Shown here: one piece after another, positions 6,995 through 33,000 of the stretch
Numbering within the stretch: the stretch's first letter is position 1
Layout: every line of letters starts with the position of its first letter
DNA from: Cochliopodium minus
Taxonomy: Eukaryota; Discosea; Himatismenida; Cochliopodiidae
Assembly (NCBI GenBank): GCA_024220525.1
Contig: JAMYWO010000049.1
Span: 65,534-129,533, forward strand
DNA: 64,000 bases
Direction: 5' to 3'
Translations under genes and position numbers: made by a program
The notes under the pieces: model-generated
Seen by the model: the letters and a program-made list of their open reading frames with translations, nothing else
Told to the model about the DNA's origin: nothing
The model's database searches: none

Positions 6995-7231
6995 AAAAAA
7001 AAATCAAAAAGTGTTGTTATTAATTTATTAATTTAGAAATTAAAATTTGAATATTTAATTTTTTTTATTTATTTTTTTATTTGATATTATTATTGTGATA
7101 TTATAAATAATAAAAAATAGTTCAATAATATTTTTATAGATTACCTTTAAAGTGATAATTGTGATAAGGAATTGAATACTTTAATATCTTTTTTTCATAT
7201 AAGGTAATAAATTTAAATTTAAAAAAAAAAA

Positions 7232-9830
7232 ATGCTTATCAACAATATAATTTCATATGGATCTTCAAATTATCAACAACTTTTTATCAAAGACAATAAA
7301 ATTTATGGATGGAAAGACAATGGAATAGAATTGAGGGACAAAGAGATTAATTTCATTGAACCTCATCAAATAAAGAGGATGGCAGTAGCAAATGGATTCA
7401 TGGTAAAAAAGGGAAGATTATGGAAGGATATGGGATGTTATAATCACAAAATTAATGATTATACGAAGCACATTTTACTCATTTTTTGAAATTATAATTA
7501 TAATTTTTATTATATAGTTTATATTGTCCAAAGAAGAATATGGAGGAAAATTATACAGCAGTGGATCCAATACATTTGGAGGTAAATAATTTCAATTTAA
7601 AAATAAAAAATTATTTATTTTTTTTATTTTTAAAATTAATAATAAAAAAAAAAGCTATTGGACACAGGAATAATGGTTTCTCGCAAGTGGAAGTAGTTAA
7701 TACACTCGACTGTGAACCCTTCACTATCACCAACGTTTCAGGAGGAGATTATCACTCTATCCTCTCCACCGACAGAGAAGATGGTCTAATGTTCGGATGC
7801 GGGTACAAAAAAATTTCAAAAGTTGTTAAATATTTTTTTTATAATTTATTTTTTTTATTCGTACAAGATACAATCCGTAAATTTTTTTTTTTTTTTTTTT
7901 TAAAAAAAGAAATTTTAAAAAAAACAATGTTAAAAGTTATGGTCAGTTAGGATTTGAAAGTGAAAATATTTTTTCTTTCAGATCTTTTAAAATAGGACAC
8001 AAAGTGGTCCAATTATCTTGTTCAGATTACAGGTAAAATAAATTATTCAAATTTAAATTTTTATTTTAAAATTAATTAAAAAGTACAATGATTATGGTCG
8101 AAGGAGGAAGAGTTTTTGTAAATTCAATTAAATTTTTATTTCCATAATTTTCTTAATTTGTTTATTTTTTCGTTTAAAAAGGTTTTGGGAGAAACAGTTA
8201 TGGTCAGTTAGGAATCACTCCACATATAATGGATGTTAAACGTAAAGATTTTTTTGGCTTTTTATTTTTCTTTTTTAATTTTTTTATACACATTTTTTAT
8301 TTTGATAATTTTTCAATTTCAATATTTTTATTTTTATTATTTTTATTATTTTTATTTTTATTTTTATTTTTATTTTTATTTTTACTTTAATTTTTTTTTT
8401 AATTTTAGAACCCACTGAAGTTATTTTGAAAGAAGAAATGGGAAATAGAGTAGCTTCTCTTTTGTTGGTGGGTATCATACCCTACTCTACAAAACGATAA
8501 TTTGTATTTTTGGGCATGTAAAAAAATAATCAAAAATAAAAATAAAAATATAAATAATAAAAAATAAATTAATGAAAATTAAAAAAAAAAAAATAATAAA
8601 AAAAAAATAAATAAAAAAAAAATTAAAAATTAAATAAAAAATAAATGTTTGAAAAAATAAATATAAATTAATGAAAATTAAAAATAAAAAAATAGTATTA
8701 AAAAAAAAAAAAATAAAATTAAAAAAATAAAAATAAAAAATAAAAAATAAAAAAATAAATGTTTGAAAAAATAAATTAATGAAAATTAAAAATAAAAAAA
8801 TAGTATTAAGAAAAAATAAAATAAAAAAATAAAAATTAAAAATTAAAAATAGAATTCTTATGGACAATGTGGATCAAACAAAAAGAACACCAACTTATTC
8901 CATACAAACATTCTTTCAAAGAAAAGTTGGTTCAAATTTCAATGGAGTCTTCCACACACTCTTTCTCTTCAACAATGGAGAAGTAAAGGGATGTGGGCAA
9001 GAGACAAGTTTGGTGGAATAAATAAAGAAATTATTGTACCCACTACCCTCTTTTGTGATGAAATCTCCTCCATTTCTTCTTCTAAGCAAGCCAATTTCTT
9101 ATTCATGAAAAATGGAGATATAAAAGTTTTGGTGAAAAAAAAATTTTGTTCTACATTTTTAAATTTAAATTATTTTAGAATTTTTTTTTATTTTAAATAA
9201 TTTTTAATAATTTTAATTTTTTTTTAAAAAAATTAATTTGGAATTTTAAATTTTTTAAATTGTTATAATTAAAATAATTTTGAAATTCTTTTTTTTAAAT
9301 TAATTTGGATTATTTAAGAATTTCATTTTTTTCATTTTTTTAATTGTTACAATTTTTTTTTGTTAACTTTTTTAAATCATTTTTTTTTTTAATAAAGGTG
9401 ATAATAGTAGAGGTGCTTGTGGCTTTAAAATTGGAGCAAAATTTATAGGAACACCCGCACTTCTTACCCAAAATGTTGATATGTTTGGAAATTTATATCA
9501 TAACACCCCCAAAATATGGTAAATTATTTATTCTCATTTTTATTTTTATATGATATTTTTGATCAAAAAAAAAATGCAGTCATTTTTATTTTAATTTTTA
9601 TTTTTCATTTTTTTATTTTTACTTTTTACTTTTTACTTTTTATTTTCATTTTTTTATTTTAAATTTTTTTTCTTTAAAGGTCTCCGAATTCTCATGGTGA
9701 GTTTGCTTTCAATGAAAGAAAAAAGATCGAGTTTGCTTTTCGCTGTTTGGTTTTCCTTAATCAGAAATTCAAGTTTAAAGTTCCCAAACCTCTAGTCTTT
9801 ATCATTATTAATTTTTACCTTACAAAATGA
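7232..9830 (+). CDS. RCC1-repeat protein with C-terminal WxxxH/PKxxxxII module, frameshifted
   Basis: Repeated motifs of the RCC1 beta-propeller type are visible through about nine exons: YSSGSNTFG, VSGGDYHS, YGQLG (twice), then GGYHTLLY, YGQCG and GACG. The protein ends with WSPNSH...KVPKPLVFIIINFYL and TGA at 9828-9830; this is the same C-terminal module seen in the neighbouring GLUG membrane proteins. The exons at about 8408-8520 and 8850-9135 cannot be read in one frame. At least four one-base shifts are needed (near 8460, 8493, 8940 and 8998; possibly another at the 9133 splice). They could be assembly errors or decay. RCC1 propellers commonly act as GTPase exchange factors or protein-binding platforms; no substrate can be assigned. 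Confidence 0.7.
8640..8830. repeat. Tandem duplication in an A-rich RCC1 intron
   Basis: Two near-identical copies of a roughly 60-bp unit containing ATAAATGTTTGAAAAAATAA and ending AAAAATAGTATTAA lie at about 8640-8703 and 8755-8808. The whole intron (about 8519-8850) is A-rich on this strand. Confidence 0.75.
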
Positions 9831-9948
9831 ATTTGTTTAAGTCGAAAATTTATTAAAATAATAATAAATTAAATAAAATAATTTAATTTAATTTGATCAC
9901 TTTGAAAAATAAGAAATAAAATTGAAAATTGCAACTTTTTTTTAAAAG

Positions 9949-10634
9949 AAAATTCCCCGAAGAATATGTTCCAACTGTTGTTTTAGAATACAGCAAGATA
10001 GTGGAGATCTCTTATAAAAGAATCAAGGTAAACTTTGTGAGCCTTGCTGGTCAGGATGATTATACTTCTTTGAGGAGTGTAAGTTTTATATTTTTAATTT
10101 TTTATTGAAATTTTTTTTTAATTTTAATTTTAATTTTGGGAAGATATCTTATCCAGGAACCAATTCTTTCATGTTGTGTTTTTCTTTGGTTAATAGATTA
10201 AGTTTTGAGCACATTCATGATTGGGTAAAAGGTGATTTTTTTATTTTTTACTTTTTTTTTATTCTTTAAATTTTTTTTAAAGAAATTTCAAATTTTGACA
10301 AAAAAATTCCATTCGTGTTGTGCGGATTGAAGAAAGATCTTAGAGAAAATCCAGGTGGGTGCCTAACAGAATATGATCTCATATCCACCGAAGAAGGAAC
10401 GCTACTTTCAAAAAAAATAGGAGCGTATGCTTATGTAGAAATTAGTTCACGCCAAAACATTGTAAAATTAATTTAAATATTAAATTTTATTTATTTTTTA
10501 AATTATTTATGATTTATTTTTTTTTAAAAAAGGGAATAGAAACAGTAATCCAAGAATTGATAAATTCTCATGTAAACAACAATAATAACAATAACGAAAA
10601 TGAAGAGGGAAAGAAAAAGTGTCAAATATTTTGA
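9949..10634 (+). pseudogene. Rho-type small GTPase lacking the P-loop exon
   Basis: Exons at about 9949-10080, 10143-10230, 10283-10460 and 10534-10634 encode a Rho-family sequence. Visible are the switch I motif EYVPTV with the conserved Thr, a degenerate switch II (SLAGQDD instead of DTAGQED), YPGTNSFMLCFSLV, G4 as GLKKDL, G5 as EISS, an Asn-rich linker and a C-terminal KKKCQIF CAAX box. The first exon with the P-loop (GxxxxGK[ST]) is not present between the preceding RCC1 stop (9830) and 9949. The Asp of DTAG is also lost. Either this is a 5'-truncated pseudogene, or a divergent GTP-independent Rho-like protein with an exon I cannot find. The Rho assignment itself is secure. It converges on the EF-hand gene with about 80 bp between stops. 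Confidence 0.65.
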
Positions 10635-10717
10635 AAAAATAAAAAATAAATAATTTTTATGAACAAAATATTAAATTTAATTTTTCCGTATTTTTTTTTG
10701 ATATTTTTGCTATTTTT

Positions 10718-11541
10718 TTAGTTTTTCTTCTCTTCTTGCTCATAAGTTTTTATACACCATTCTTTGAATTCTTCATAGCTTATCTCCCCGTTTTTGTCTT
10801 TGTCCACTGCTTCGAATAGATCATTGGTAAACTTACTAATGTCAGTCTTTTCTAATTTTACATTTTTCCTCATTTCTGATGAAAAATTTAAAAGTGAAAA
10901 TGAAATAATAATAAATAAAAAATATAATGAATTAAAAATTAAATCAAATTTTAAAATTTAAATAATAAAACTGTTTATATACCTTTTGGAAGATTTTTCA
11001 TCATTTGTGCTGCCATTTTCTTTTTTTTTAAATTAAATTTTTTAAATTATTTTATTAAAAATTTATTATTGTAGCTCGGAATCAAATTTTTTTTTAATTG
11101 TTGCAACCATTCATTGGATTTATTAATGTATATTTGAGATATCTAATTATATTCAAATCAATTTTTATTTTTTACCTTTCCCTCTTCTATTTCCTTCTTA
11201 TGCTTCTTTTGGAGGTAATTGTAGAAATCCTTGGCCAATCTGTTGAATTCTTTTCTCTCCAATGATGAATTATGATTCTTATCATAGCTTCATTGTTCGA
11301 TCATATGTTCAATATTATCATAATAAAAAAATAATTAAGTGAATATCTTTTACCTGCTGAATACTTTCTGGATAAATTGATTATAATAATCAATTATTTG
11401 AGCGAATAAGCATTAAATTAAGGTACCTTCATTAATAATTCATCTTCTGGTTTCTTGTATAAAAAATTATTGAGAAAATAAAAAAAAAAAGAAGAAAATT
11501 TGTATTTTTACTTGAAATGCTTTTCCCAATTCACTTCCCAT
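10718..11541 (-). CDS. Small EF-hand calcium-binding protein, possibly N-myristoylated
   Basis: Six short exons (about 11541-11512, 11478-11451, 11369-11355, 11288-11176, 11017-10982, 10877-10718) join to about 125 residues. Two EF-hand loops are visible: DKNHNSSLERKE and DKDKNGEISYEE; each has acidic or oxygen-bearing residues at positions 1, 3, 5 and 12. The N-terminus MGSELGKAF has Gly2 and Ser5/Lys7-like spacing compatible with N-myristoylation, though the Ser is at position 3, so this is only suggestive. The C-terminus is Lys/Glu-rich. The general family is calmodulin/calcineurin-B-like; no target is predictable. The start lies 128 bp downstream of the GLUG-A stop on the same strand. Confidence 0.75.
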
Positions 11542-11668
11542 AATTGATAAATTATTTTATCTAACAATCTAATTTTTTTTATTTATTTTTTTGAATTTTT
11601 TTTCACCAAATTGAAATAAAAGAATTTAAAAAAATCATTTAATTATTTAATTTTATTTGTTCAATCTT

Positions 11669-14465
11669 TCACTCATCATCAGATAAAAGATCAAGATCAA
11701 TCATTTCATCATTTTCTAACAATTTCTCATTGTAGTAATTAGAATGAATATTGTTGTTATTTTTGTATTTGATTACAGTGAAAAAAGGTTTGACTTCCAC
11801 TTTTATATCATCTTTACTAATCCTACTTCTTAGTGAAGAATCATTATTGATTATTTTTCTGAAAAACTTTGAATTGTCTACAAACTCTTTGATGATGGAA
11901 TAGCGCAAATATTTCGGAAATTTTAAAAGAAAGTTCCTCTCCGAAATTTTGAGACAAACTAAAAAACAAAAAATGATTTCTTGCTTTGTTGGAAAGTGAG
12001 GATTGTTCTCCACTGTCCAACCTTCCCTCAAAACTCTCTTTTTTATTTCTTTTTGTCGTTTTTCTTCTTCGATCGCTTCTTGTAATCTTTTTTGTATTCT
12101 CTTTTTTTTGTACTTTGGAATCACCCAAGCTACCAAAATAGTGATTGAAACAAACAAAAGTATAAAAAGCCCCAAACCAACTTTTTTTAAAATAGTTGTG
12201 AGAAAAATAAAAATAAACAAAATAAAAATAAAAATGAAAATAAACCTAATAAAAAAATAAAATGAAAAATAAATATTCAAAAAAGTTGATTTAAAATCTA
12301 AAATAAATATCAATAAAATATCAATAATAAAAAAATCAAAAAAGTCAAAAAATTAAATAATAAAAAAATCTAATTTAAAATCTAAAATGATGATCAAATT
12401 AAAATAAAATAAATTAAATCTTTAGATTAATAAAATGACAAAAATAAAAAAATTATTTACGAGTTATCCCTACTATGAAAGGAATCATATTATAATTAAT
12501 TGGGCGGGCAGAATAAGAAGTAGACAATGAAATTTCACCAAGGGCACAAACAGTGTTGTTACAAATATTTCCCAAAAAAGTATTATTGGAATAAGATACA
12601 TTGCGCATACTCTCTAAAGCTCCCCAATAATATCCTGTTGTATTTCCGTTGATTACATTAAAATTTGAACATGAGTGTTCAACGTTGATAACAGCTTTTA
12701 AAATAAAAATTAATGAAGAAAAAAATAAAAATAAATATAAAATAAAAAATAATAATAAAAATAAAAATAAAAAAAAATAAAAAAATAATAATACTATAAA
12801 AATAATAATACTGATAAGAAAATAAAATTAAAAAATAAAAAAAAGTATACCAGAGGAAGCATATCCGAAAAATCCTCCTGAAAAAGAACTGGGGTTGAAA
12901 TTAAAAAATTTATTTAAAAAAACTTTTTTTTAAAGTACTATTTTTTCTGGGACGATATCGAAGAATTTATTGTATTTTCAATTGAAATACATTTTTTTAC
13001 AGAAATAGATGAGCCATAATTTCTTCCTATTAGTCCCCCTGAGCTAGCTTCGTAATTACCAACAGAAATTAGGGTATTATATGAAGAATTACAATTTTCA
13101 AGATTTCTTTAATTAAAAATTTAAAATTTTAAAATTTTAATTAATTTTATTTTAAAATCAAATTCTTTTGAAAAAAAATATTTGATTAATTTATTTTTTT
13201 CAAAAAAAAAGTATCGTTACAGATAAGATGAAAAACCAGCAAATCCACCGCTTGATATAAAATCATCAAAATTAGATTTTGTGACTACTTTGTTATGATG
13301 AGAAGTTGAATTGTAAATACTCACATCAAAAGCATTCCCTACTATTCCTCCTGAATAAGATTCTCTTCTCGAAAAAGATGAGTTCAGTTTGTTGAATGAT
13401 GATGTAATATTTCTCATCGTCGAATCCAATGCAGTCCCAATTATTCCTCCTAAATTTCCTTTGATAAATAAAAATAATCATAAATAAGATAATAAATAAT
13501 TATTGAATATTTTTTGTAAACTTTATTGGAAAAACAGAAAAAACCAAGAATTTCATTGAAATCATGATAAAAAATTGTTTTTTTCAAATCAAATCATAAG
13601 ATTAACAAATCCGTAAAACATGTCTTGGTTTTTGAAACTTTTGATAATTTATATTTTATTTAATTATATTTGTGTTTTTAATTTATTTTTATTTTATCTT
13701 TTTTTATTTATAATTTATTATCAATATATAAAAAAAAAATTCTAAATGAATACTTCCGCTCGAGTTTAAAATTGTGGAATTAACAATGCAATCAAATATC
13801 TTCCCAAATTCAACTCTCCCTATTAATCCTCCAACAAAATTATTTCCAGATATGCTGTTGGATTCTTTCTTTTCGGTGAAGATTGAAACATTTCTGATTG
13901 TACAATTCCAACAGTAGCCAAATAATACGCCCACATAATCATAACTTGAGTTTATATTCACATCAATCAAGTTCAAATTTGATATCATTGTATCTCTTCC
14001 ACATGGAAAAAGACCTAATTTAAATATGAGATTGTTATTAATCCTTTTTGTTGCATAATTATTTGGTTATGTTCATATTTATAAAATTTTTGAAATTTCT
14101 CAGCAAATATTTTACCTGTATAATATAAACTTGATTGTATTGTCAGATTTTTGATTGAATATCCCTTTCCATCTTATCATTTTAATCGAAATTTATCAAA
14201 ATTAAAATTTTTTTTTTTTTAGACAAATAATTTCACCAAATTTTCCTTTGAATGCTACCCTACAATTTAAATTGATAGGATTGATGGATGAATAGCAAGT
14301 TAAATTTCCATTCAATTCATAAGCGATATTTGAATCATTTAAAATGATATTGTTGAAGGAATCACAATCATTCAAAATAATAGCTCGAGAATTGCTAAGA
14401 ACAAAAAAAAAGGAAAAAAAAGTAATCAACAAAGTGAAAGAGAATATATGGATCTTTGATAACAT
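11669..14465 (-). CDS. GLUG-repeat type I membrane protein, paralog A
   Basis: The start ATG (14463-14465) opens a hydrophobic signal peptide, then LNDCDSFNNIILNDSNIAYE, a motif shared with the two paralogs. The ectodomain carries repeated GLUG-like units (NFVGGLIG, YSGGIVGN, SSGGFAGF, SGGLIGR, SGGFFGY) that predict a right-handed beta-helix or adhesin-like stalk rich in N-glycosylation sites. A transmembrane helix lies at about 12200-12120, followed by a basic juxtamembrane segment, the WxxxH/PKYLRYSIIKEF module (about 12025-11880) and an acidic end MIDLDLLSDDE. GLUG repeats are known mainly from secreted adhesins and peptidases, so I infer a surface receptor or adhesin with a signalling tail. 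It starts 49 bp after the RCC1 stop at 14514. Exon joins are by eye. Confidence 0.78.
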
Positions 14466-14513
14466 TTTTTTTGTTTTTTTGAAAGAAATCAAAAAATGAA
14501 ATCAAATCGTTTT

Positions 14514-16525
14514 TCAATTCATGAGACTCAACCAAGTTTGCTTGACAATAAGAAACAAAATAACTTTAGGTATCTTAATTTTGTGTAAAACAAAAAATCT
14601 TTTCATAGAAAGAACAAAAAAAAGAATGGAGTTTCTAAAATCAAGAGTAAGTAATTTATGAGAAGAAGAATCCCATTCAATGAAACGTTTTCCTACTTGA
14701 AGAAAATGAATAGGAGAATTTTTTAACATCAAAGTAGATGCAGACTTGAGATTTCCGAATTTGAAGTGAAGGTTTTCACCGAAAGCGTGGAGTTCCCCGT
14801 TTTTCTTGAGTAGAAGAGATGAAGCGGTTCCGCAAGTGATGCTTTCTATTTGAGGATCGCTCATCACAAGTTTCATTTCAAATTGAGTTTGTACTCCTTT
14901 GAATCCTAATTCGCCTAATCATAAAAATTTTTAAATTTTTTTATTTATTTTTTATTTATTTTCTTTGTTGATTTATTTAAAAAATTACCAAAAAGATTGG
15001 ACCCAAAAGAAAAAAGGTCTCCATTTTCTTTAAGTATGAAAGAGTGTTGGTTTCCTAATTAATATGAATTCAACAAAATCGTTGGGAAAAAAAAAATGAA
15101 AAAAAAAATAACCACAAGAAATGCTCTTTATTTGTTTATCTTTTATCAATAAATAAGGTAAGTTTTGATTTTTATTGTTTCCAATACCAAGTTGTCCCTT
15201 AAAAAAGAAATTTCTTGAATCAAAAATTACTGAAAGAAATATCATTAATTGAAATTTTAAAACTTCTCTTGTTTTTAATTTTTTCTTTAAAATTTTTATT
15301 TTGATTTTTTAAATTTTTTTTTTTTTTTTACATAACAACCCAATCCCATCACATACAATTCTCCACTGTGATTCAATAACATGGTATGACTTCCTCCGAG
15401 TGCCATCATTTTGAGATCAGGGAAATTTTTCATAAGTGAGAATTTATAATTGTCAAATTTTTGTCCAATCCCTAGTTGACCCTTTAATCAAATAATAAAT
15501 TTTTTATTTTTTTAATTTTATTTTTAAAAAAATATTTTTTTTCTATTTTTTATTTTATTTTTAATTACACTTTCATTGTTTCCTGTCACGAATATATCCT
15601 AATAAACATTATTTTACTAAAAAAAAACTTTTTTTTCTTTTTTACACCATTACTCTTGTACATCATACTAAAATAGTTTCCAGAGTAAACTTTCTTTATG
15701 GTTTTGTCTTTCATCAACAGAAAGGGTTGTTGTTTTAACTTATTTTTTCTAGGCAAACCCAAAACACCAAAACTAAATTTATAATTTTATTTTTTTTTAA
15801 CTTATTATTTATTATTTATTATTTTTATTATTCATTGTTTTTTTATTTTTTATTTATTATTTATTATTTATTGTTTATTTTTATTTTTTTCAAAAATTTT
15901 ATTTTACTAATTTGATCCAAAACAGTATAATTCTCCATTATCTTTCAAGACGAATGAACTTTCGGATCCACAACTAATTTCTTTGATAGTTGAATCTTTC
16001 ATCACCAAAACTGGATATTTTTGATTCTTCAAAGAATTTATTCCCAATTGACCTATTTAGTAAATAATTGAATATTCATTTATTAGACATGTCCAAATAT
16101 TACAACTTTGTTAGGATATAAAATTTTTACAAACAAATTTTAAACTGTTTTAATATTTGGATATCCTATTTGTTTATTAATTATTTATCCGCTAACTATT
16201 ATAATGTTGTGTTGTTTAAATTTATTTTGATACAAAATTTCATATTGTTTTTTTACCTTTATTGTTTGATCCATAAGAATATAATTCTCCATTATTTTTT
16301 AATATCAATCCATGTTCACTGCCACTCGCAATTGAAATTATATTGTCATCTTCCATAGCAATAAATGGTTCATTAGGATCATCATTCAATTGGTAGCCAT
16401 ATAAAATAAACTTATTGCCTGAATATCACATATTAATTGAAATAATTCTTGAAGCTTGTTGATTTGAATTAATTATTACCAATAAGAATTGAAGTGAAAT
16501 TAGATTGAGAAGAATAATATTTCAT
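14514..16525 (-). CDS. RCC1-repeat protein with C-terminal WxxxH/PKxxxxI module
   Basis: It starts MKYYSSQSNFTS at 16525 and reads through about eight exons into RCC1 propeller blades: GSEHGLILKNNGELYSYGSN, GQLGIN, SCGSESSF, YCFGSN, GQLGIG (twice), LYVMG, LFSFGSN and GELGF. The last exon (14876-14514) contains a final blade and then EWDSSSH, a hydrophobic LLTLDFRNSILFFVLSMKR stretch and KIPKVILFLIVK, so the protein ends in the same module as the GLUG tails and the 7.2-kb RCC1 protein. The gene is wedged between GLUG-B (stop 61 bp upstream) and GLUG-A (start 49 bp downstream), all on one strand. The region near 15050-15110 is unclear and may contain an intron or a disturbed frame. Confidence 0.78.
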
Positions 16526-16585
16526 TATTAAAGCAATTTTTTATTATTTATTTTTAATTTTTAATTTTCAATTTAAAATAAAAAT

Positions 16586-18940
16586 TCACTCATCAGAAGA
16601 TAAAAGATCAAGATCAATCATTTCATCATTTTCTAGTAATTTGTCTTTGTGGTTAACATAGGGTAAATAATTCTCATTGTTATTTTTTTTAACTTCAATC
16701 ACAGTGTATAAAGGTTTGTTTGGAGGTTTGGCTTCTACTTTTAGAGGTTTGGCTTTAACTTTTCCATCTTCACTAACTTGTGAAAAATTGTTATTATTGT
16801 CCACAAACTCTTTGATGATGGAATAGCGCAAATATTTCGGAATTTTAAAAAGAAAGTTCCTCTCAAAAATTTTGAGACAAAGCAAAAAACAAAAAATGAT
16901 TTTTTGTTTTGTAGGAAAGTGAAGATTGTTCTCCACTGTCCAACCTTCCCTCAAAACTCTCTTTTTTATTACTATTTGCCTAATTTCTTCTTCAATCTCT
17001 TCTTGTAATCTTTGTTGGTATCTCCTTTGCTTCGATCTCTCTTTTCTATCATTAATTCTCATTTTGCATTTGGGAATGAAGATACATATTGAAAGTACAA
17101 TTAAAATGAACAAGAAAAACAAAAGACCAAAACCTACTGTTAAAGTTATCATAGAATTTAAAATATTAAAAAAAGTAAATCTTAAATTAAAAATAAATTT
17201 TCAAAAATATTAAAAATATTTATATTGGTTGAATAAAATTAAGAAATTTTAAATTTTTACGTGATATTCCTAATATGAAAGGAACCTCACTATAAGAGTA
17301 AAAATAGTATTTTCCAAGAATGCAATTTAAATCATTGCAAATATTTCCCACAAATGAATTATTAAGGGAAGAAAGAGTTTTAATATCGAGTAAACCCCAA
17401 TAATAGCCTGTATTTATTCCTTTAATGGTATTATAATTCGAATTTGATAAATCCATTCTTATAATACCTTGAAAAAGATTTATTGTGATTCAAATTATTT
17501 ATTGTGAAAATTAAAATAAATTTTACCGCCTTCATCATAATAAGTAGAATACCCGATAATTCCTCCAGAACGAGAACTTTAATTTATAATTATTTATCTA
17601 ATGTTCTAAAAAATTTCACGTGTACCTTTTTGTATTAGAAGATGAAATATGGTTTTCTTGTGAAGTGCAATATTTTATCAATAGTTTTTGGTTGTAACTT
17701 CTTCCCACTAATCCCCCACTTACTCCATATTTACCAATGGACGTAATGTTGTTGCTGTAAGAAATACAAAAAGCTAGATTTCTGATCAAAAAAAAAAAAT
17801 AATAAAAAAATATAAAAATTAATAAAAATAAAAATAAATTTAAAAACAAGTTAAATTGTTGCATTGATAGAAATTAAAATATTCTTTAAAAACTCGACAT
17901 TTTAAAAAATTTAAACAATTACAAACTTTTATAATTATATCCGACAAAGCCTGCACTTGCTTTATCATATTCAACAGAAAGTGAATATGAAATTATTTCG
18001 TTTTTATGAGATGTTGAGTTGTAAATGCTTACACTTTCAGCCAATCCCACCATCCCTCCCGAGTATGTGTTAAGGAATGAATTTGATGAAATTCGGTTGA
18101 ATGAAGATATTAAATTTCTCATTAATACATTTTTAGCAATCCCGAATATTCCTCCCAAATATCCTTTAATAAAAATATAAAAAAAAAAATTTATTTTGAT
18201 TATTTTTATACCTATTTTAGAGTTTATAATACTTGAATTGATGTTGCAATTTATAATTTCTCCCCTGTATATATCTCCTATAAATCCTCCAACATAATTA
18301 TATCCTGATATTTTATTGTATTCTTCCTTTTCAGTGAAGATTGAAACTTGTCTAATCTTACAATTTGAACAATATCCAAATAATACACCCACTGAATCAT
18401 TAATCGAGGATATATTCACATCAATTAAATTCAAATTTGATATAGTTGCATTTCTTCCACATGGAAAAAGGCCTAATTTGTTGAAAAGATAAGATAAAAT
18501 ATAAAAATCATTTTTATTGATAAAGATAACTCAATTTTTCTTCTTTCTATTTTTATATATTTACCTGTATAAAATGAATTTGATTGGACAGTAAGATTTT
18601 TGATTGAATATCCTTTCCATCTTTCAAATTTGAGAATAAAATTAAAGAACCAAAAAAAAAAATATCCCATATATGTATTTTATTGCAAACATACAAATAA
18701 ATATTTTTATTACCTAATTTTCCTTCAAAAGAATCACAGTTTAAATTTGACTTACAATCAATCACTGTTCTGCAAAATAATTTTTGAATTGCAAGTTATA
18801 TTTTGATTCAATTGTAAACGATGGTGGGATTATTTAAAAGCATATTTTTAGAGATTCACAATCCTTCAAGATAATGGTTACAGAGGTTACAAAGATAAAG
18901 AAGAATGATAAAGCACAAATAACTTGTTTAAAAATAACAT
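16586..18940 (-). CDS. GLUG-repeat type I membrane protein, paralog B
   Basis: Closest to paralog A in the tail. The N-terminal exon (ATG 18938-18940) encodes a signal peptide followed by ILKDCESL, but to continue into the family motif NNPTIVYN one A must be missing near 18843, and a second disturbance follows at the TGA near 18815. The 5' end is therefore frameshifted as assembled. Further exons are clean: KGYSIKNLTVQS, FPCGRNATISNLNLIDVNIS, VGVLFGYCSNC, then GLUG units YVGGFIGD, YLGGIFGI, YSGGMVGL, ASAGFVGY, VSGGLVGR and RSGGIIGY. A transmembrane helix (about 17150-17075) is followed by the module GWTVENNLHFPTKQ...IPKYLRYSIIKEF (16947-16805) and an acidic end MIDLDLLSSDE. Confidence 0.74.
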
Positions 18941-19441
18941 TTATTTTTAAAATTATTTTATTTTATTGAAAATAGAATAAAAATATTTTATTTAAGATTA
19001 GGAATTAAGATGATAAAATTAATTTAAGAAAATTTGGAAAGACTGAATAAAATTAAAATAACATTAAAAATAATTTGAAAGCAAACTGTAAAAGTTAGTA
19101 CTTTTTAAGATCTTCTCCTCAATTTTAAATATTCTGTTTGTAAAATCTTTTCAAAAAAACAAACATTTTTTTCATTTTTTGTTCACTATAATTATTTTTT
19201 TTTTTTTATTTATATTTATTTATAAATATTTAATTTATTCAATAAACAAATAAATGAATTTTGGATCTTTTGTGAAAAATAGTTTGGATCGTTTAAAATG
19301 TAATAATTTGTTTTGTTTCTAATAATATAACATTTGAAAAATTTGAAAATTCTAATCTTTCTAAAGATAAAAACGGATTAATTTTCATGAGAGAAAATAA
19401 AATTTAAAAAATTGAACAAATTCTTCAATAAAAATCAACGA
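18941..19441. other. Intergenic, shared 5' region
   Basis: Head-to-head spacer between GLUG-B (minus) and the F-box/SPRY gene (plus). It is AT-rich with A- and T-tracts; I see no coding signal and no clear RNA gene. Confidence 0.6.
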
Positions 19442-20595
19442 ATGGAAAAATTGCCTCTCACAATTTTTAGTTATTTTGGTGAATTTCTGGAATTAAGACA
19501 AATTGGAATACTATCTCGATGCTGCAAGACATTACACAAGAATATTAACAAAGATAAGATCTTTTTTCACTATTCCAGAAAGAGATATCAGGTGGATAAA
19601 TTACCTGAAGAATATAAAACATGGAGAGAATTTGTAAAAGAACATTCTGATTTGAAATGGGACAAAAATGGAGGAGGAATTGAAATTTCTAAAAATGGAA
19701 GGTCAATTACTTCAACAAATTGGTCATGTGCTATCACTAATCTATCATTCAACAAAGGGAAACATTTTGTTCTCTTCCTTATCCGCAAATATCAATTTGG
19801 ATTTCTGGGAATAGCATTTCCAAATGCAAAATTAGTAGGACCATGTTTTGGAGATGGGAGTTTTGCTCATTCAAGCTTTTACAAAGATTATAGGTTCGAA
19901 ATAATTATAAAAAATAAAATTTTTTTTTTTTTTTAGCTGAAATTATTTTTTTAAATTTTAATATTTTTTTTTTAAAATTAATCAATTCTATCCATTTTCA
20001 TTTCAATCTCATTTGTTTAGAGATCCAATTACTCAAAAAGATTATAATGCATTTTCAACCTATCATAAAAAATTACCTCAACACAAAGCACTTTGGAAAA
20101 CAGGTTTACTTCCCACAATCTCAATTCTTTTTTTGCAAAAAAAAAAATATTATTTGTTTTATTTATTCAAAAAAATTATAGGAGATTTGGTGGGAGTTTA
20201 TTTAGATTTAGATAGTGAAAACAGAACGATGACGTATTACATAAATGGGGAAAAATCTGAAGATGGAATTGCTTTTGAAAATTTACCCAATAGTAGAAAA
20301 TATTTAATATTTAATATTTTTCTTATTTTTTTATATTTTTTCTTTTTTTTATTTTTTTATTAAAATAGATAGGTACCACTTTTTTTTTAGTGGATATATA
20401 GAGACCTATGAAATTATAAAGCAAAGATTTTACATTTCTGACGAAGTTTCTTTCTTTGAAGACACTAACCTCTTTAAAATTCAAGAAAAAGCCGAAATTC
20501 AAACCAAAAATCAACCAAGTACCCATCACAACCATATACACAAAGAAATTGAAGAAGTTCCTAAAACTAAAGCGAATAATTGTTCTGTTTTTTGA
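19442..20595 (+). CDS. F-box/SPRY protein with C-terminal CAAX box
   Basis: Exons are about 19442-19893, 20020-20101, 20181-20293 and 20366-20595. The N-terminus (LPLTIFSYFGEF...CCKTLHKNI) is F-box-like, which would recruit Skp1-Cullin1 ubiquitin ligase. A SPRY/B30.2 domain follows, recognised by GIEISKNGRSI near its start, FGFLGIAF, GDLVGVYLDLDSENRTMTYYI (key residues G, D, Y and NG) and a closing FFFSGYIETYE. The C-terminus is KANNCSVF, a CAAX prenylation signal (C-aliphatic-aliphatic-Phe, predicted geranylgeranyl). The F-box plus SPRY arrangement resembles FBXO45; a prenylated version would be membrane-anchored. The first ATG that gives the F-box is used. Confidence 0.8.
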
Positions 20596-20801
20596 TTGAA
20601 AAATAAAAAAAAAATTTTTGATTGGAAAACTTTATTAAATAAAAAATAAAAAAAACAAAAAAAAAAAATTATGTAAAAGAAGATTCCAATTCAAAGAACT
20701 TGCAGTTTAAATAACCTGATATTTTTAAAAAGAAATTTGGTATATAACTTTCATTCCAAATTGAATTTAATTTCTATTCACAAAAAAAAAGTATACAAAG
20801 T

Positions 20802-23429
20802 TCAATTCTCGGAATCAGATAAAACAATTACATCTTCATCTCTGTTATCAATTAAAGAATCTTTATAATTCGTAGAGATTTCTTTGGGGGAACTCTCCAC
20901 AACAATCTCCTCCAAATCCCTGTTGCTCTTTTTGGTTTTAGGATGATGTTTCACAGTAAAAAGATCCCAATCATCAACAAACTCCTTTATAATCTCATAA
21001 CGCAAATATTTCGGAATTTTTAAATTAAACTTCCTCTCAGTAATTTTTAATGAAAGCAAAAAAATTTGAATTGTTTCGTGTCTTTTGGGAAAGTATGAGT
21101 GGTAGTCAGGTGACCAACCCTTCTTGGCTATTTTGGTTTTCTCTTCTTCTATCAGCATTTTTTTGAGGAATGTTCGCTGTCTTTTCTTTCTCAAATGGAG
21201 TGGGATAACAAAAGTTATTACAATGAACGAAATGATCACCAAAGCAGGAACTAAGGAAATATAATAGTTTAAAAAAAAAAAAGACTGTTAAAATGAAAAA
21301 TAATATAAGTAGAATGAATCAATAAATTCAAATTTAAAATGATGTAAAAGAGAAACAAAATAAAATAAGTTATCAAATAAAAATTTTGAAGTAAAGTGGA
21401 ATGAATAAATTTGAGTCAAATTTAAATAAAAATAATAAAATGAAATAAAATAAAAATAAATTGTAATTTAAAATGAAGTTAAAAAAAAATAAATTCAAAT
21501 TTAAATAAAGATAAATGAAAAAAAAAGAAAAAATAAAAAAAATTAAAAATGAATTAAAATAAAATTAAAAATTATTTTGAAGTAAATTTTTTGTTAGATT
21601 TTTTACTCACAAACAACAAAACAGAATAGATTAATGTGGTTCTAGAAGTGACTTTTGTGGAAGTTCCTTGGTTACATTTAACGCTGTTGCAAGTGTTCCC
21701 ACTGTTGGTGTTTCTTAGGGTGGCGATCGATTTCATCTTTTGGAGGAATCCCCAGAAAAAACCGGTGCTTCTTCCTTCAATAGCATTATCTCTACTTGAC
21801 GAAAAATACATAATGAATTTTGCTAAAAAATAAATCATTTAAAAAAAAATTAGTAAGGAAAATAAAAAATAAAATTTATTTTTAAAAATCTATATGAAAT
21901 AAAAAATAAAAAATTTATTTCAATTTAAGAAAATAAATTAAAAAAATAAAACATTAATTTCAAATTCAAAATAAAAAAAAATTTTTTTTAGTCTCACCTG
22001 CTATTGAATATCCTACAAATCCCGCTGAATAAGAACTATTTTTTCCAAAAAAAAATTTATTATTTAAACTTTTATTTCATTTGTTTTTCTTACTCTGCAT
22101 TATTTGAAAAACAAAAAATATGGTTGTTATTAGATGTACATCCAGTGATGTAAATGTAATCTGAAAATGCACCAACCATTCCTCCTGAACTGGAAGGATT
22201 GAAATAAGAAGAGGTAGAACCCAATTCATTATTAGAAGAAAAACAAGTGTCTAAATATCTATTTTATTTGGAAATAAATAAAGAAATAAAAAAATGATAA
22301 ACAAAAAAAAAAAAATAAACAAAAACAAAAACAAAAACAAAAAATAAATAAAGAAATAAAAAAATGATAAACAAAAAATAAAAAAATAAAAAAAACAAAA
22401 AAAAATTTTGTTTTACAATGAAAATGTACTAAAACCTACAAACCCTCCTGTATAAGAAGAAGAGCTTGAAGAATTGCAGGAGACAGTGTTTTTGAAAGAA
22501 ATGGATTTGGTAATGGAAGTCAATGCAGAAAAGCCGATCAGTCCACCTGAATAAGTTGAAGATGTGATCACATTATAGGAAGATGTTACATTAATTAAAA
22601 TGATTGTATATGCAACACCAAATAAACTTCCGGCATGAACTTTTTTTTTTTTTTGTTATTTTATGAATATTTTATTTCAGTGAAAAATAAAATTATTTAA
22701 TATTATACTTGAATCAGAACTGATGATGGTTGAATTGATATAACTATCACTCATATTTAAAGTGATTGCCTCTCCTATAAATCCTCCCACATTGTACATT
22801 CCTGATATTTTGTTGTTTGTATTCTTTTCTGTGAGAATAGATACGCTAATTATCTCACAATTCGAACAATATCCAAACAATACACCCACTGAATCAAGAT
22901 TATTCATCGATACTATTTCCACATCTATTATTTTTAAATTTGATATTGTAGCATTTTCTCCACATGAAAATATCCCTATTTATAAAGTTAACTTAATCAA
23001 TGATATCTTTATAAAAGATATATCTATCTATGTGCGATCTTATACTGTCGTTTCATTCTTTTCAAATAAAAATTTTTTTAAATATTACCTGTGTGAGATT
23101 TATTTGTTTGAATGGATAGATTCTTGATTGAATATCCCTTTCCATCTTTAAAGATATTTAAAAAGCAAAAATTTTATTGTTACGGAAAATTTATTTATTT
23201 TTATTTTTCACTTACCTATTATCCCTTTGAATTTATTATCAACACAATCACCAATTGAATCAAATTTTGTGTTTTTACATGTTATATCTCCTGTTAATTC
23301 GTATGCAATGGTTGAATTATTCAATATTATACTTTTGAGGGATTCACAATCATCCAGATATATTACTTGTGAATAGAATAGTTTATAATATATACAAAAT
23401 ACTACCAGCAATTTGGAAATCTTTTTCAT
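20802..23429 (-). CDS. GLUG-repeat type I membrane protein, paralog C
   Basis: The ATG at 23429 gives a signal peptide, then YLDDCESLKSIILNNSTIAY, the family N-terminal motif with conserved Asp-Cys-Glu. Exons then give KGYSIKNLSIQT, SVGVLFGYCSNCE, NVGGFIGE, YSGGLIGF, YTGGFVGF, SSGGMVGA, SAGFVGY and a FFWGFL unit. A transmembrane helix (about 21240-21190) leads to a Lys/Arg-rich segment, GWSPDYHSYFPKRHET...KIPKYLRYEIIKEF (21120-20975), and the C-terminus EDVIVLSDSEN. That end matches the SUMO-interaction-motif pattern (hydrophobic V-I-V-L followed by Ser and acidic residues). It is more diverged from A and B than they are from each other and is separated from them by the F-box/SPRY gene, with which it converges (206 bp between stops). 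Confidence 0.77.
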
Positions 23430-25389: not shown

Positions 25390-26780
25390 TTAAAAAAAAA
25401 AAAAAAAATAAAAAAAACCATTATCTCCCCAACCCATTAAATCACCATTTTCCTTGTAAATTAAGACATGGTAAGCTCCACATTCCATCAATTTAATTTT
25501 AGGAACATCAAACAAAAGAGTTGACCTGGAAAAAACTATGAATTGATCTTTATCTCCAAGTTGATTGTGAGTGTTTGACCCATACCCATAAACTTTCTCG
25601 TCGTTTGAATACATCAAAAAAAAATTCCAACCTTTAAAAAATAAATAATAAAAAAATTAAATAAGATTACAATTAAATAAAATAATTTGATTGTATAAAT
25701 TCTATCCTCACAAAAAAATAATATAAATTAAAATAACAAATGAAATATTAAAGAAAAATTCTTTATTAATCAATTTTAATTTTGAAAAAAAAAATTTACC
25801 AGCAGAAATCATTTTAATGTTATTTTCGACTTCCTCATCAAAATTCTTGAATACTTTCCCATCGTTCTTCAAAATCACCGAAAAATCTTGTCCACAACAA
25901 ATAGACTTTATTTCTTTATCATTCAAGAGTAATGTTGGCTTTAAAACAAATTTTTCGTTTCTTAAATTCAAATTTTTTGAAGATAGATTTCTACTATTTC
26001 CCATTCCAAATAAATCTCCGTTAGAACAATACAGCAGTGTAAAGTAATATCCACAACTTATTGAAGCTACTTCTATTCCCTTTATTATTTCTACAATAGT
26101 TGTCTTTTGAATCGTTGTTCCATCTCCTAATTGTCCTTTTTAATTTTTAAATTTTACATAGGGAAAAAATTATGCATTTTAAATATAATGTAAAGTATAT
26201 AATTAACATTGTATATTTGGCTTTATATCTCCAATATCGATGTTTGATTTTTTTTTATCGTGTCAAAATATCCATTTCTAACATGGAATTATTAAATTAA
26301 TTTATTTTTATTTTGATTGGAGAGTAATTGAAGATTCATAGGTTGGGGAATGAATTCAAATTCCAATGATTCATCAATCAAACAATATTATTTTAAAAAT
26401 TATATTTTAGAATTTAAAGGAGAGGAAAAATGTTGAAAATTATTACCATTTCGATTGTCTCCACATCCATAAACAATTCTTTCCTTTTCTATTATTATCA
26501 AAGTATTTTTAAATTTTTGTTAATAAAAATTAAATTAGTATAATCCTTATTAATCTTGCCATCATAAAAAAATCCAAAATATCCATGGCAGTTTGATGAA
26601 TAATTTTCCATAAATCTTGTTCGGATTCAATTTTTTCTTTTTTTTTTATTCAAATTTAAAAAAAATAGATTTAAATCTTGAGAATATTCTTTCCAATTTG
26701 GATCACTTCCGAATAAATTTTGTTTTTCAAAATTATTTCCATATTTTAGGTTGAAATTTTTTTTTTTTCAGAGAAAAACC
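25390..26780 (-). CDS. RCC1-repeat protein, C-terminus lost at the assembly gap
   Basis: Minus-strand exons encode RCC1 blades: a first segment with GNNFEKQNLFGSDPNWKEYS (about 26745-26690), NYSSNCHGYFGFFYDGK (26610-26555), VYGCGDN, QLGDGT, SCGYYFTLLYCSNGDLFGMGN, CCGQDFSVILKNDGKVF, VYGYGSNTHNQLGD, MECGAYHVLIYKENGDLMGWGDN. The sequence then enters the heptamer repeat and gap, so the expected C-terminal module is not visible. One A appears to be missing near 26612, where DLWK should run into NYSSN; the start is uncertain (an upstream exon or the ATG at 26611). Related to the two other RCC1 genes in the window. Confidence 0.65.
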
Positions 26781-30045: not shown

Positions 30046-33000
30046 TCAATGTTTTTTGTGTGAAAGATAGATCTTCTCCGTGTGAAAGATACAGCCCATA
30101 CAAGACAGAAAACGGCCACAGTCATAATTATTTTTTGGAATGGAATATTTTTTGATGTTGTCTTTTTCCAATCTGACTTGAAAAGCCATACTTTATGTTG
30201 TCGGTTACTTTCTCCAAATTATTCTCTTTTCAAAAGATATACTCTAGGACAGCTTCAAAACACTTTTCGTTGGTTCCTCCAAGCGAGTCAAAATATGTCA
30301 ATTTTTTTCTCTCAACTTTATTTCTAGAATACACCAGTGATTCCCTAAGTGTATTGGAACATAAATGGTATACTTTTCGGAGAAAATGTGACTATCAAAG
30401 TTATAATGTCTCTTGACTGTTGAATAGCCTTTGTTTGTCAGCTCAGTGTAAAAGTAGGTGGTAAAAAAATAACACTTTTCCAAAGGAAGATGATACTTGA
30501 ATCTTTTGTTGAGCAAATTATTGAGAGAATTGATGATCTATTTGAAAAATATGATAAATATGATAAATTTGATAATTAAAAATAAATATTTAATTAATAG
30601 ATTCAATTTACGTCAGAATTTAACCACTTTGATAAGGTATTGGAATTGCTTGTAGGAGGAAGTAAGATTTTGAAATCTCTGACTTTAAATTCACAAGCTC
30701 CAAATGCTGACAAAACAAAGTCATCATGTTTGTTACTAATTAATTCCATCATTCTTCTTTTTTCTTCATTGCTGATTGGAGAAACAATTTCTCCAAATGT
30801 AAGAAAGTCATCTCTATTTTGGTTTTCTTCTTCGTCTGAATCATCAACAAAGTTCCAATGAATGATACTTGTTGGAACGAAGAGAGAGGAAGGGGAAGTG
30901 ACCGGAATAGAGGAAGGAGGAGAATATCTATCCCTTTTTTTGGGAGGTAACATGTCTTTGGAGATGGGAAACGGGATAGTGGTGACGGGAGGATTTTTTT
31001 GTGGTTTAAAAATATTTTTTGAATACAACAAAATAACCACGTTCTTTTTGTTGTCCAATGTCCCCACTTCTTTGTTCAAGAAAGAACTTCCATTTCTGAA
31101 AGCAAAAAATTGACCTAGTTAATAAAATTAATAAAATTTTTTAATTAAAAAAGAGAAAAGGGGTACTCTGTTCTCGTTTATTTTTTTTTTTGCTTTCATC
31201 TTTTAAAAAAAAGTAAATAAAATAAAAAATATAAATACAAATAAAATAAATAATGTAAAATAAAAAATAAAAAATAACTTAATATAAAATAAAATAAAAA
31301 AAATAATAAATAATAAAGAAATATTAATTAAAATAAGATTTATCATAAAAATAAAAAATAAAAAATTGAAAAATAAAAATAAAAAATAAAAAATAAAAAA
31401 TAAAAAATAAAAAATAAAAAATAAAAATTAATTTGTTAAAAATGTTATTTTCATACCCTCGGTTTGGTTGATGGTGCATACCAATTTAAAATTGGTTTTA
31501 TGATTTGTTTTTGGATCAAACAGCGAAATTTCGTCATCAAACAATAGATCAGTATTTGAAGGAAAATGCAAAATGAGGTTGTCAGGAAGAGAAGAGATAG
31601 AAAAATCAAACTGATGGTTTTGATTGGAGTTGCAGGTATCACATTTGAAGAGATGTAATCTTGGAGCAAAAAATAAATCAAAATAATTCTGCAGTGTTGG
31701 ATCTTCCTGTGAAAGACTTCCAAATGATAAAGAAAATTGAGACAAAGATCGGATCATGATTTCATTACAAGCAATGCACCTTATTGTTTCAGAAAGTTCT
31801 ATCTCAAACATTGATTTTATGAGATTTGGTTGATCAATGAAAGGACATTCCACATTGAGATTTTCTAGCAAGAATTCCAACAACCTATGAGGAGAATGTT
31901 CTTCGTTGGATGGAAAAGATTTTTGAATTACACTTTTCAAAAAAGAAGCTGAAAAACAAGAAAGAGAAGAACATCCTTCATTCGTGTAAATCTGCAAAAT
32001 CTTGGAATAAGCGGAGAAATAAAGAGGTGTAACTTCATACTTGCTTTTTGGAAAACTAAAACTCTGTTGTTTAATGAAAATGGAAAGATCACCAACTGAG
32101 AGAAGAAGTTGAACAACACTGTTGAGATACGAAGAATTTCCCAAATCAATAAATCCTCTATTGCAGCTTGGATCATAAATTATATCGAGGTTATAAAGAG
32201 AGAATTTTTTGTTTGAGTCGTTGACGATGGTTGTGATCGAGGACTTTTTCACAAAGAAGAGTTCTTCAAGGTCGAAAGATGTATCAAGAAGAAACTTCAA
32301 GCAACGATTACGGTTATCATCGTAAGAGTAAAACGACAATTCATCTATTTTGAAGAGCTGAATATAGCAATCGATGAAATTTCTGAGGTAAACAAGAAAA
32401 AAATTGTGAGTGGATGTTTCGTCGTCACTGAGCTGAACAGGATAGCTTTGTGGACCAAAACTGCAAAGAGGAGAGAAAGAAGATATGACAAGATTTGGTT
32501 TGTTCTTTGTTTTCTCAAGCAATTCATATGATTTATCAGTGTTGTTTTTTCTTGTGTGGATTTTGAATTCCTGTCTCTTTTCAACTGTTTTCGTAATGTC
32601 ATCAATACATTGCAATAACTCAGCTCCAGCAACTTGCATCACTTTGGACGTTGATGGGAGTTTTTCTTCATCAATCTTTGTTCTACCTCCCTCCCCATTT
32701 GTCTTTGAAAGATCTCCATGAAGTTTACGATGAATGAGTTCTTGAAGCTCAAGTGACAATACCCTTAATCCCTCTTTTGAATAAAAAATAAAATAACCAA
32801 CAAAGAAATATTTAAAACAAATTAATATCAAAAATATACAAATATAAATAATTAATTAAAATAAAAATAAAATAAAAATAAAAAAATCAAAATCTATCAA
32901 GAATAAAAATTGGGAAATTAAATAAATTGAAATTAAAAAAATAACAAACAAATAGTTAAAATATAATAAGAAAATTATTAAAATTTCAAAAACTAAAATA

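Follow-up and report, generated by a model that had tools for sequence, protein, structure and literature searches.

Five proteins of Cochliopodium minus, two of them RCC1-like (RCC1-1 and RCC1-2) and three resembling membrane receptors with GLUG repeats (GLUG-A, GLUG-B and GLUG-C), carry one and the same tail of about 45 residues at or towards their C-terminal ends. Their genes lie within 64,000 nucleotides of contig C49 (positions 65534-129533), hereafter called the window, of a genome of 44.65 Mb in 598 contigs with a G+C content of 26%. A receptor box of cullin-RING ubiquitin ligases is suggested because of the position and size of the tail, its predicted helical hairpin, its exchange among substrate-binding domains, and its fusion to an RBX1-type RING; we hold the chances to be about even that the tail is such a box, as a family independent of those already described.

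The homology of the five copies was assessed with a hidden Markov model (HMM) built from 59 genome copies, 55 from outside the window and four from within it, RCC1-2 not being among them. Against the six-frame translation of the window, this model gives five matches with expectation values (E) from 4.2e-23 to 3.6e-10, the weakest being RCC1-2, and the next match stands at E=0.12. These are exactly the five copies listed in the original prediction, whose positions hold to within 10 bases with the correction that four of the five lie on the minus strand. The claim that the RCC1 and GLUG copies belong together is likewise borne out by profiles of restricted origin. All five copies are recovered by a leave-out HMM of 52 copies that are neither of GLUG type nor from the window (8.3e-20 to 1.2e-10; next, 0.076), by an ankyrin-only HMM of 11 rows (7e-8 or better), and by an RCC1-only HMM of 22 rows without window copies (5.5e-9 or better), and in the search with a GLUG-only HMM (6 rows, 3 from the window) the two RCC1 copies rank next, at 1.3e-4 and 5.8e-3, followed by a match at 0.084. 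The real copies score 38 to 67 bits, and the best score reached in 30 windows simulated with matching dinucleotide statistics is 19.2. The HMM, the leave-out HMMs, and the simulated windows together reject chance or base composition as the source of the matches, and one homologous module common to all five window proteins is confirmed.

The consensus over the 59 rows reads W-[ST]-P-x-x-H-x-x-F, followed by K-x-x-[IV]-x-x-F-[LV]-L-[CS]-L-K, about 8 residues, and K-[IVLF]-P-K-[YPF]-[LIV]-x-x-x-I-[IL]. Residues of the turn are nearly invariant (K 59/59, P 59/59, K 56/59), as are those at the start of the block (W 55/59, H 53/59, F 57/59). In place of the histidine in the motif first proposed for the window, GLUG-A and GLUG-B have asparagine. 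AlphaFold2, given the GLUG-C tail and the four remaining window copies, predicts a helical hairpin whose second helix is capped by proline (helices at 24-41 and 48-60, with a turn between them), with a predicted local distance difference test (pLDDT) score of about 90 at residues 31-50, a mean of 72.8, and a predicted template modelling score (pTM) of 0.51; this model agrees with the two helices and Pro-Lys turn that had been read from the letters.

None of the 45 tails searched has a significant match in Pfam (best E 0.02, with families scattered), and the tails have none in NCBIfam (best E 0.02). The tail profile finds no relative among PDB sequences, where antibody chains, at E 0.55 and 1.6, are all that it matches. 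No relative was confirmed by tblastn in viral contigs, scanned with four single-copy tail queries, or in prokaryotic genomes, scanned with one, both scans reaching close relatives only. In addition, no description of the module was found in the literature searched, which covers few subscription journals and no preprints. By Pfam, NCBIfam, and this literature, an undescribed module is supported, and the idea that one such tail is carried by unrelated architectures stands, with host domains that are more varied than those of the window.

The tail is abundant beyond the window. Whole-genome searches with four single-copy queries (one GLUG-type, one ankyrin-type, and two RCC1-type), each giving its best 150 scored places, together yield at least 349 places on 192 contigs, weaker rows included. 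At E<=0.01 there are at least 278 places on 167 of the 598 contigs, a figure obtained by removing from the 349 those 67 places known only through one search's rows at E>0.01 and four from another. Both numbers are likely an undercount, because each search yields its best 150 places only and the RCC1-2 copy of the window appears in none of the four lists. Among the weaker rows, the [IVLF]-P-K turn was seen by eye in 20/20 places, the sample being 20 of 60 places drawn at random from 204. A neighbouring tail place lies within 5 kb for 95 of the 349. The inferred intron of RCC1-1 interrupts the codon for W, and 8 of 28 loci listed have an acceptor-like site no more than 10 bases from where the match starts, an arrangement that would be compatible with exon shuffling.

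Host proteins were surveyed at 79 loci, namely the 59 best matches and 20 random ones, with the duplicate L046 dropped. A consensus search upstream of the tail finds RCC1 repeats at 33 loci, ankyrin repeats at 17, leucine-rich repeats (LRRs) at 3, and GLUG repeats at 4, and its antisense control gives 0 for each of the four. The original prediction that the module links surface receptors and RCC1 proteins is therefore too narrow, as ankyrin and LRR proteins also carry the tail. Labels are lacking for 22 of the 79 loci, including RCC1-1 of the window (L036), which is RCC1-like by a Pfam match of its strung-together exons, L007 and L008, whose tails are of GLUG type, and L054, which has ankyrin repeats by Pfam. 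By eye, L038, L058, and L065 are LRR-like and L013, L017, and L019 are SPRY-like, and a Pfam search of L038 and L019 gave no match; L028 is counted under ankyrin (E 0.0016), yet is labelled SPRY-like in the tree described below. At L064, a Cys-rich, zinc-binding-like stretch is seen by eye between ankyrin-like repeats and tail (Pfam only 0.06).

The protein ends within 15 residues of the match in 52 of the 79 loci and within 40 residues in 65, while 53 to 69 residues follow it in GLUG-type proteins. The tail thus usually stands near the C-terminus, past repeats of RCC1, ankyrin, or LRR type, and within the cytoplasmic part of the GLUG receptors. Five of the loci (L012, L031, L050, L081, and L085) end after the tail in a CxxX prenylation-like motif. 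A place behind RCC1, ankyrin, or LRR repeats, found in 53 of the 79 loci by the consensus search, is also what would be expected of a structural C-cap that completes repeat domains such as ankyrin and RCC1 and has no partner of its own. However, the tail of GLUG receptors lies beyond a transmembrane-like segment and away from the repeats, the tail on contig C536 precedes a RING, and the tail sequence is conserved across unrelated hosts, all of which make a mere cap very improbable.

When the tails are arranged in a tree, the host label changes 10 times among 66 labelled rows, versus a mean of 29 when labels are shuffled, with 10 of the 66 labels assigned by eye or by tail type, and with few columns, weak forks, and 45 of 76 inner branches open. 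Because the tails sort by host domain, each type appears to have grown mostly by duplication after few transfers, and this sorting agrees with a module that is old and has been maintained. A recent spread through gene conversion was also considered and is not favored, as the tails sort by host domain, within the limits that few columns and 45/76 open inner branches set to such a tree.

RINGs of the RBX1 type are specific to cullin ligases, and the only direct pointer to the function of the tail is its fusion to such a RING. Contig C536 (L037) carries two tandem genes, in each of which a single open frame holds the tail, a short linker, and the first half of a RING, and the second half follows behind an inferred intron and runs to the stop. 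The spliced proteins match Pfam zf-rbx1 at 3.6e-16 and 1.9e-18, and one of them, searched against PDB, has RBX1 at the top (about 1e-20), followed by RBX2 (1.7e-9) and APC11 (1.4e-5). Among the 30 zf-rbx1 matches found genome-wide, the two C536 RINGs rank second and third, and no other of the 30 has any of the 263 tail places tested within 300 bases upstream. The second gene of the pair appears to start with MGNKQNK, which by eye resembles an N-myristoylation signal.

On these grounds, the tail may be pictured as a small C-terminal adaptor box in which a helix of 18 residues is joined by a short [IVLF]-Pro-Lys turn to another helix. Such a box would plug interchangeable binding domains into a cullin-RING ubiquitin ligase, namely RCC1 propellers, ankyrin repeats, LRRs, perhaps SPRY-like domains, and, across the membrane, GLUG ectodomains. 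Each tail protein would then be a substrate receptor, or would itself be turned over as a receptor, and the tail would do, as an independent family, the job done by SOCS boxes in animals and by F-boxes generally. We infer that the tail binds the ligase machinery, through SKP1, the cullin, or RBX1. In favor of this reading, the genome encodes SKP1, cullins, with 29 matching pieces on eight contigs, and F-boxes at no fewer than 150 places. Tentatively, and as somewhat short of an even chance, we propose that this is a lineage-specific substrate-receptor box with an origin separate from the F-box, SOCS/BC box, BTB, and DCAF, which feeds several hundred proteins, including transmembrane surface receptors, into cullin-RING ligases, and that in one gene pair the receptor part, the box, and an RBX1-type RING are joined in one chain.

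The main rival to a receptor box, possible although on the doubtful side in our view, is a general docking or dimerization module that recruits its hosts to one shared scaffold or to membranes, as might happen in trafficking or in small-GTPase signaling, that has no role in ubiquitination, and for which the RBX1 fusion is incidental. It would account for the presence of three of the five window copies in membrane-receptor-like genes, for the Ras-like gene that follows RCC1-1, for the prenylation-like ends of 5/79 tail loci, and for the finding of a RING on one tandem pair only. However, the sole catalytic partner seen in the loci that were read belongs to the cullin-dedicated type of RING, and the host domains are typical substrate-binding domains.

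Several observations weigh against the receptor box. The RBX1 fusion concerns one tandem pair and is probably one evolutionary event, fusions to other kinds of domain were surveyed within the 79 loci only, and a further candidate tail-RING fusion at C64 was rejected, its RBX1-like match belonging to a separate gene. The structural model, based on five sequences, is modest by the scores given above, and a Foldseek search with it against PDB finds no match, which is a weak test for a hairpin of this size. The motifs of known boxes are also scarce. The BC box has the pattern [APST]Lxxx[CSA]xxx[AILV] and the Cul5 box contains LPxP; the former occurs in 1/59 tails in strict and 6/59 in loose form, and the latter in 0/59. 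Comparison of the tail profile with the SOCS box yields a probability score of 0.4, with hhalign setting KIPK on LPLP very weakly, and that with the F-box is faint, 15 columns (KIPKyl..II) falling on its first helix with a score of 5.3 and E 0.0073.

The original prediction had found the tail reminiscent of SOCS-box or F-box-like adaptors. The flavor of an adaptor box remains, given the RBX1 RING fusion and the host domains, but membership in either family is not borne out by profiles and motifs. A true SOCS box or F-box that has diverged very far, alike by common descent rather than by analogy, would agree with the weak hhalign placements just given, and the F-box helix 1 pattern, LPxExLxxxIL, has a loose counterpart in the C-terminal half of 57/59 copies (P with hydrophobics at +3, +7, and +8). 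SKP1 is also encoded in the genome (L086, Pfam Skp1 5.9e-27; L087 and L088 are SKP1-like by eye). Such descent is nevertheless improbable. The strict helix 1 pattern occurs in 0/59 tails, the BC box and LPxP are as scarce as stated, Pfam F-box and PRANC match none of the 45 tails, and among the 150 best-scored F-box places (of 481 candidates), none has a same-strand overlap with any of 263 tail places. Tail-F-box fusions considered at C200, C146, and C191 were rejected, as in each case the F-box opens its own next gene. A genome-wide search with the SOCS box profile (PF07525) gives nothing at E<=10, and none of the 45 tails matches that family. Furthermore, Elongin C was not detected with Skp1_POZ, a profile with which human Elongin C reaches 43 bits and which here gives 5 matches at 4 places, of which the three translated (the one on C31 was not) are all SKP1-like; human Elongin C as a direct query also found nothing in the genome, in a search without positive control. 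As in SOCS-box proteins, the tail takes a C-terminal place after a substrate-binding domain. By these tests it belongs to neither family, although by analogy it may work like them, in a genome where receptor boxes in general appear expanded, F-box genes being numerous.

Coordinates of the tails and of the parts of their host genes in the window
Feature	Position	Strand	Evidence
RCC1-1 tail	9517..9827	+	HMM E 1.3e-17; leave-out HMM 1.1e-14; splice check: W codon 9517-9518 plus 9680, inferred intron 9519-9679, stop 9828-9830
RCC1-1 RCC1-like exons	7223..9518	+	strung-together exons match WD40_RLD and RCC1_2, both under curated cut-offs
RCC1-2 tail, C-terminal	14517..14675	-	HMM E 3.6e-10, absent from training set; leave-out HMM 1.2e-10
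RCC1-2 RCC1 repeats	14676..16425	-	Pfam RCC1_2 over cut-off in two exons
GLUG-A tail, cytoplasmic part	11873..12019	-	HMM E 1e-18; leave-out HMM 1.7e-12
GLUG-A hydrophobic transmembrane-like segment, just before tail	12119..12181	-	sequence, by eye
GLUG-A GLUG repeats, ectodomain exon	13220..13477	-	Pfam Glug 6e-6, over cut-off
GLUG-A signal-peptide-like start	14382..14465	-	sequence, by eye
GLUG-B tail, cytoplasmic part	16796..16942	-	HMM E 7.3e-20; leave-out HMM 5.1e-14
GLUG-B transmembrane-like segment	17075..17140	-	sequence, by eye
GLUG-C tail, cytoplasmic part	20970..21116	-	HMM E 4.2e-23; leave-out HMM 8.3e-20
GLUG-C transmembrane-like segment	21198..21254	-	sequence, by eye

The introns of the genome are short and A+T-rich. 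The A+T content is 74.0% in the window and 74.7% in 290,733 bases of tail loci. The exons of RCC1-1, strung together, match WD40_RLD (RCC1-like domain) at 2.5e-14 and 53.8 bits, under the full-length cut-off of that model, and RCC1_2 at 4.6e-4, just under cut-off; three of the exons taken singly have no RCC1 match in Pfam, and the RCC1 consensus search also missed this gene. In RCC1-2, RCC1_2 is matched at 15910-16056 (7.9e-9) and at 16243-16425 (1e-9), and the last exon matches WD40_RLD at 3.7e-5 and RCC1_2 at 0.0012, both under cut-off. The remaining Glug matches are likewise under cut-off, namely 0.033 at 17922-18530 in GLUG-B, 8.1e-4 at 22416-22655 (just under) in GLUG-C, and 0.028 in one further exon.

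Directly 3' of the RCC1-1 gene lie the exons of a Ras-family GTPase (9926-10476, plus strand; Pfam Ras 1.3e-5 at 10270-10473). Adjoining GLUG-C is a gene without the tail (19391-20595, plus strand), whose start resembles an F-box (Pfam 0.028) and which also matches SPRY (8.7e-4), both under cut-off; it ends in NNCSVF, a CaaX-like motif. A third RCC1 gene (25390-26139, minus strand; RCC1_2 5.5e-13 at 25708-26136) also has no tail copy. Further along the minus strand are genes for a ubiquitin carboxyl-terminal hydrolase (31431-32831; UCH 5.9e-14) and a phosphatidylinositol 4-kinase (44710-48326; PI3Ka 2.6e-24, PI4K_N 9.1e-22).

The cullin-RING ligases known so far rely on a handful of kinds of receptor box. 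One published account argues for an ancestral origin of F-box, BTB, and DDB complexes and a later one, perhaps twice over, of elongin/BC-box complexes (PMC2785787). If the tail is indeed a receptor box, it would be another late invention of this kind, found on hundreds of proteins including surface receptors, which would mean that such plugs evolve repeatedly, and it would give hundreds of unannotated protist proteins a testable function. The tail profile can be searched at once in protist proteomes.

Among known systems, the GLUG surface proteins and the RCC1 family are represented in the window by ectodomain and propeller parts that match Pfam Glug and RCC1, with the tail lying outside both families. 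The RING-H2 domain of RBX1/RBX2 is a partner domain and not the tail itself, being fused in frame to it in the two tandem genes. RBX1 has a tryptophan-rich cullin-binding strand, which was not seen by eye in the C536 fusions, where the tail stands in its place. PRANC is a C-terminal domain of poxvirus ankyrin proteins. Pfam models of neither PRANC nor the F-box (PF00646) match any of the 45 tails, and the F-box is N-terminal in the three F-box genes read, but the residues after the proline of the tail's second helix follow a loosely similar hydrophobic pattern, and SKP1 and many F-box genes occur in the same genome as the tail. SOCS-box proteins include ASB, SPSB, WSB, and SOCS, and in animals ankyrin, SPRY, and propeller proteins are among the hosts of this box. 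The tail differs from the SOCS box (PF07525) in having neither BC box nor LPxP, in occurring in a genome without a PF07525 match in which Elongin C was not detected, in its W...H...F start block, and in being carried by transmembrane receptors as well. Nevertheless, the two are alike in a length of about 40 residues, in their C-terminal position, in a helix followed by a turn with proline and a further helix, and in their placement on ankyrin and propeller proteins.

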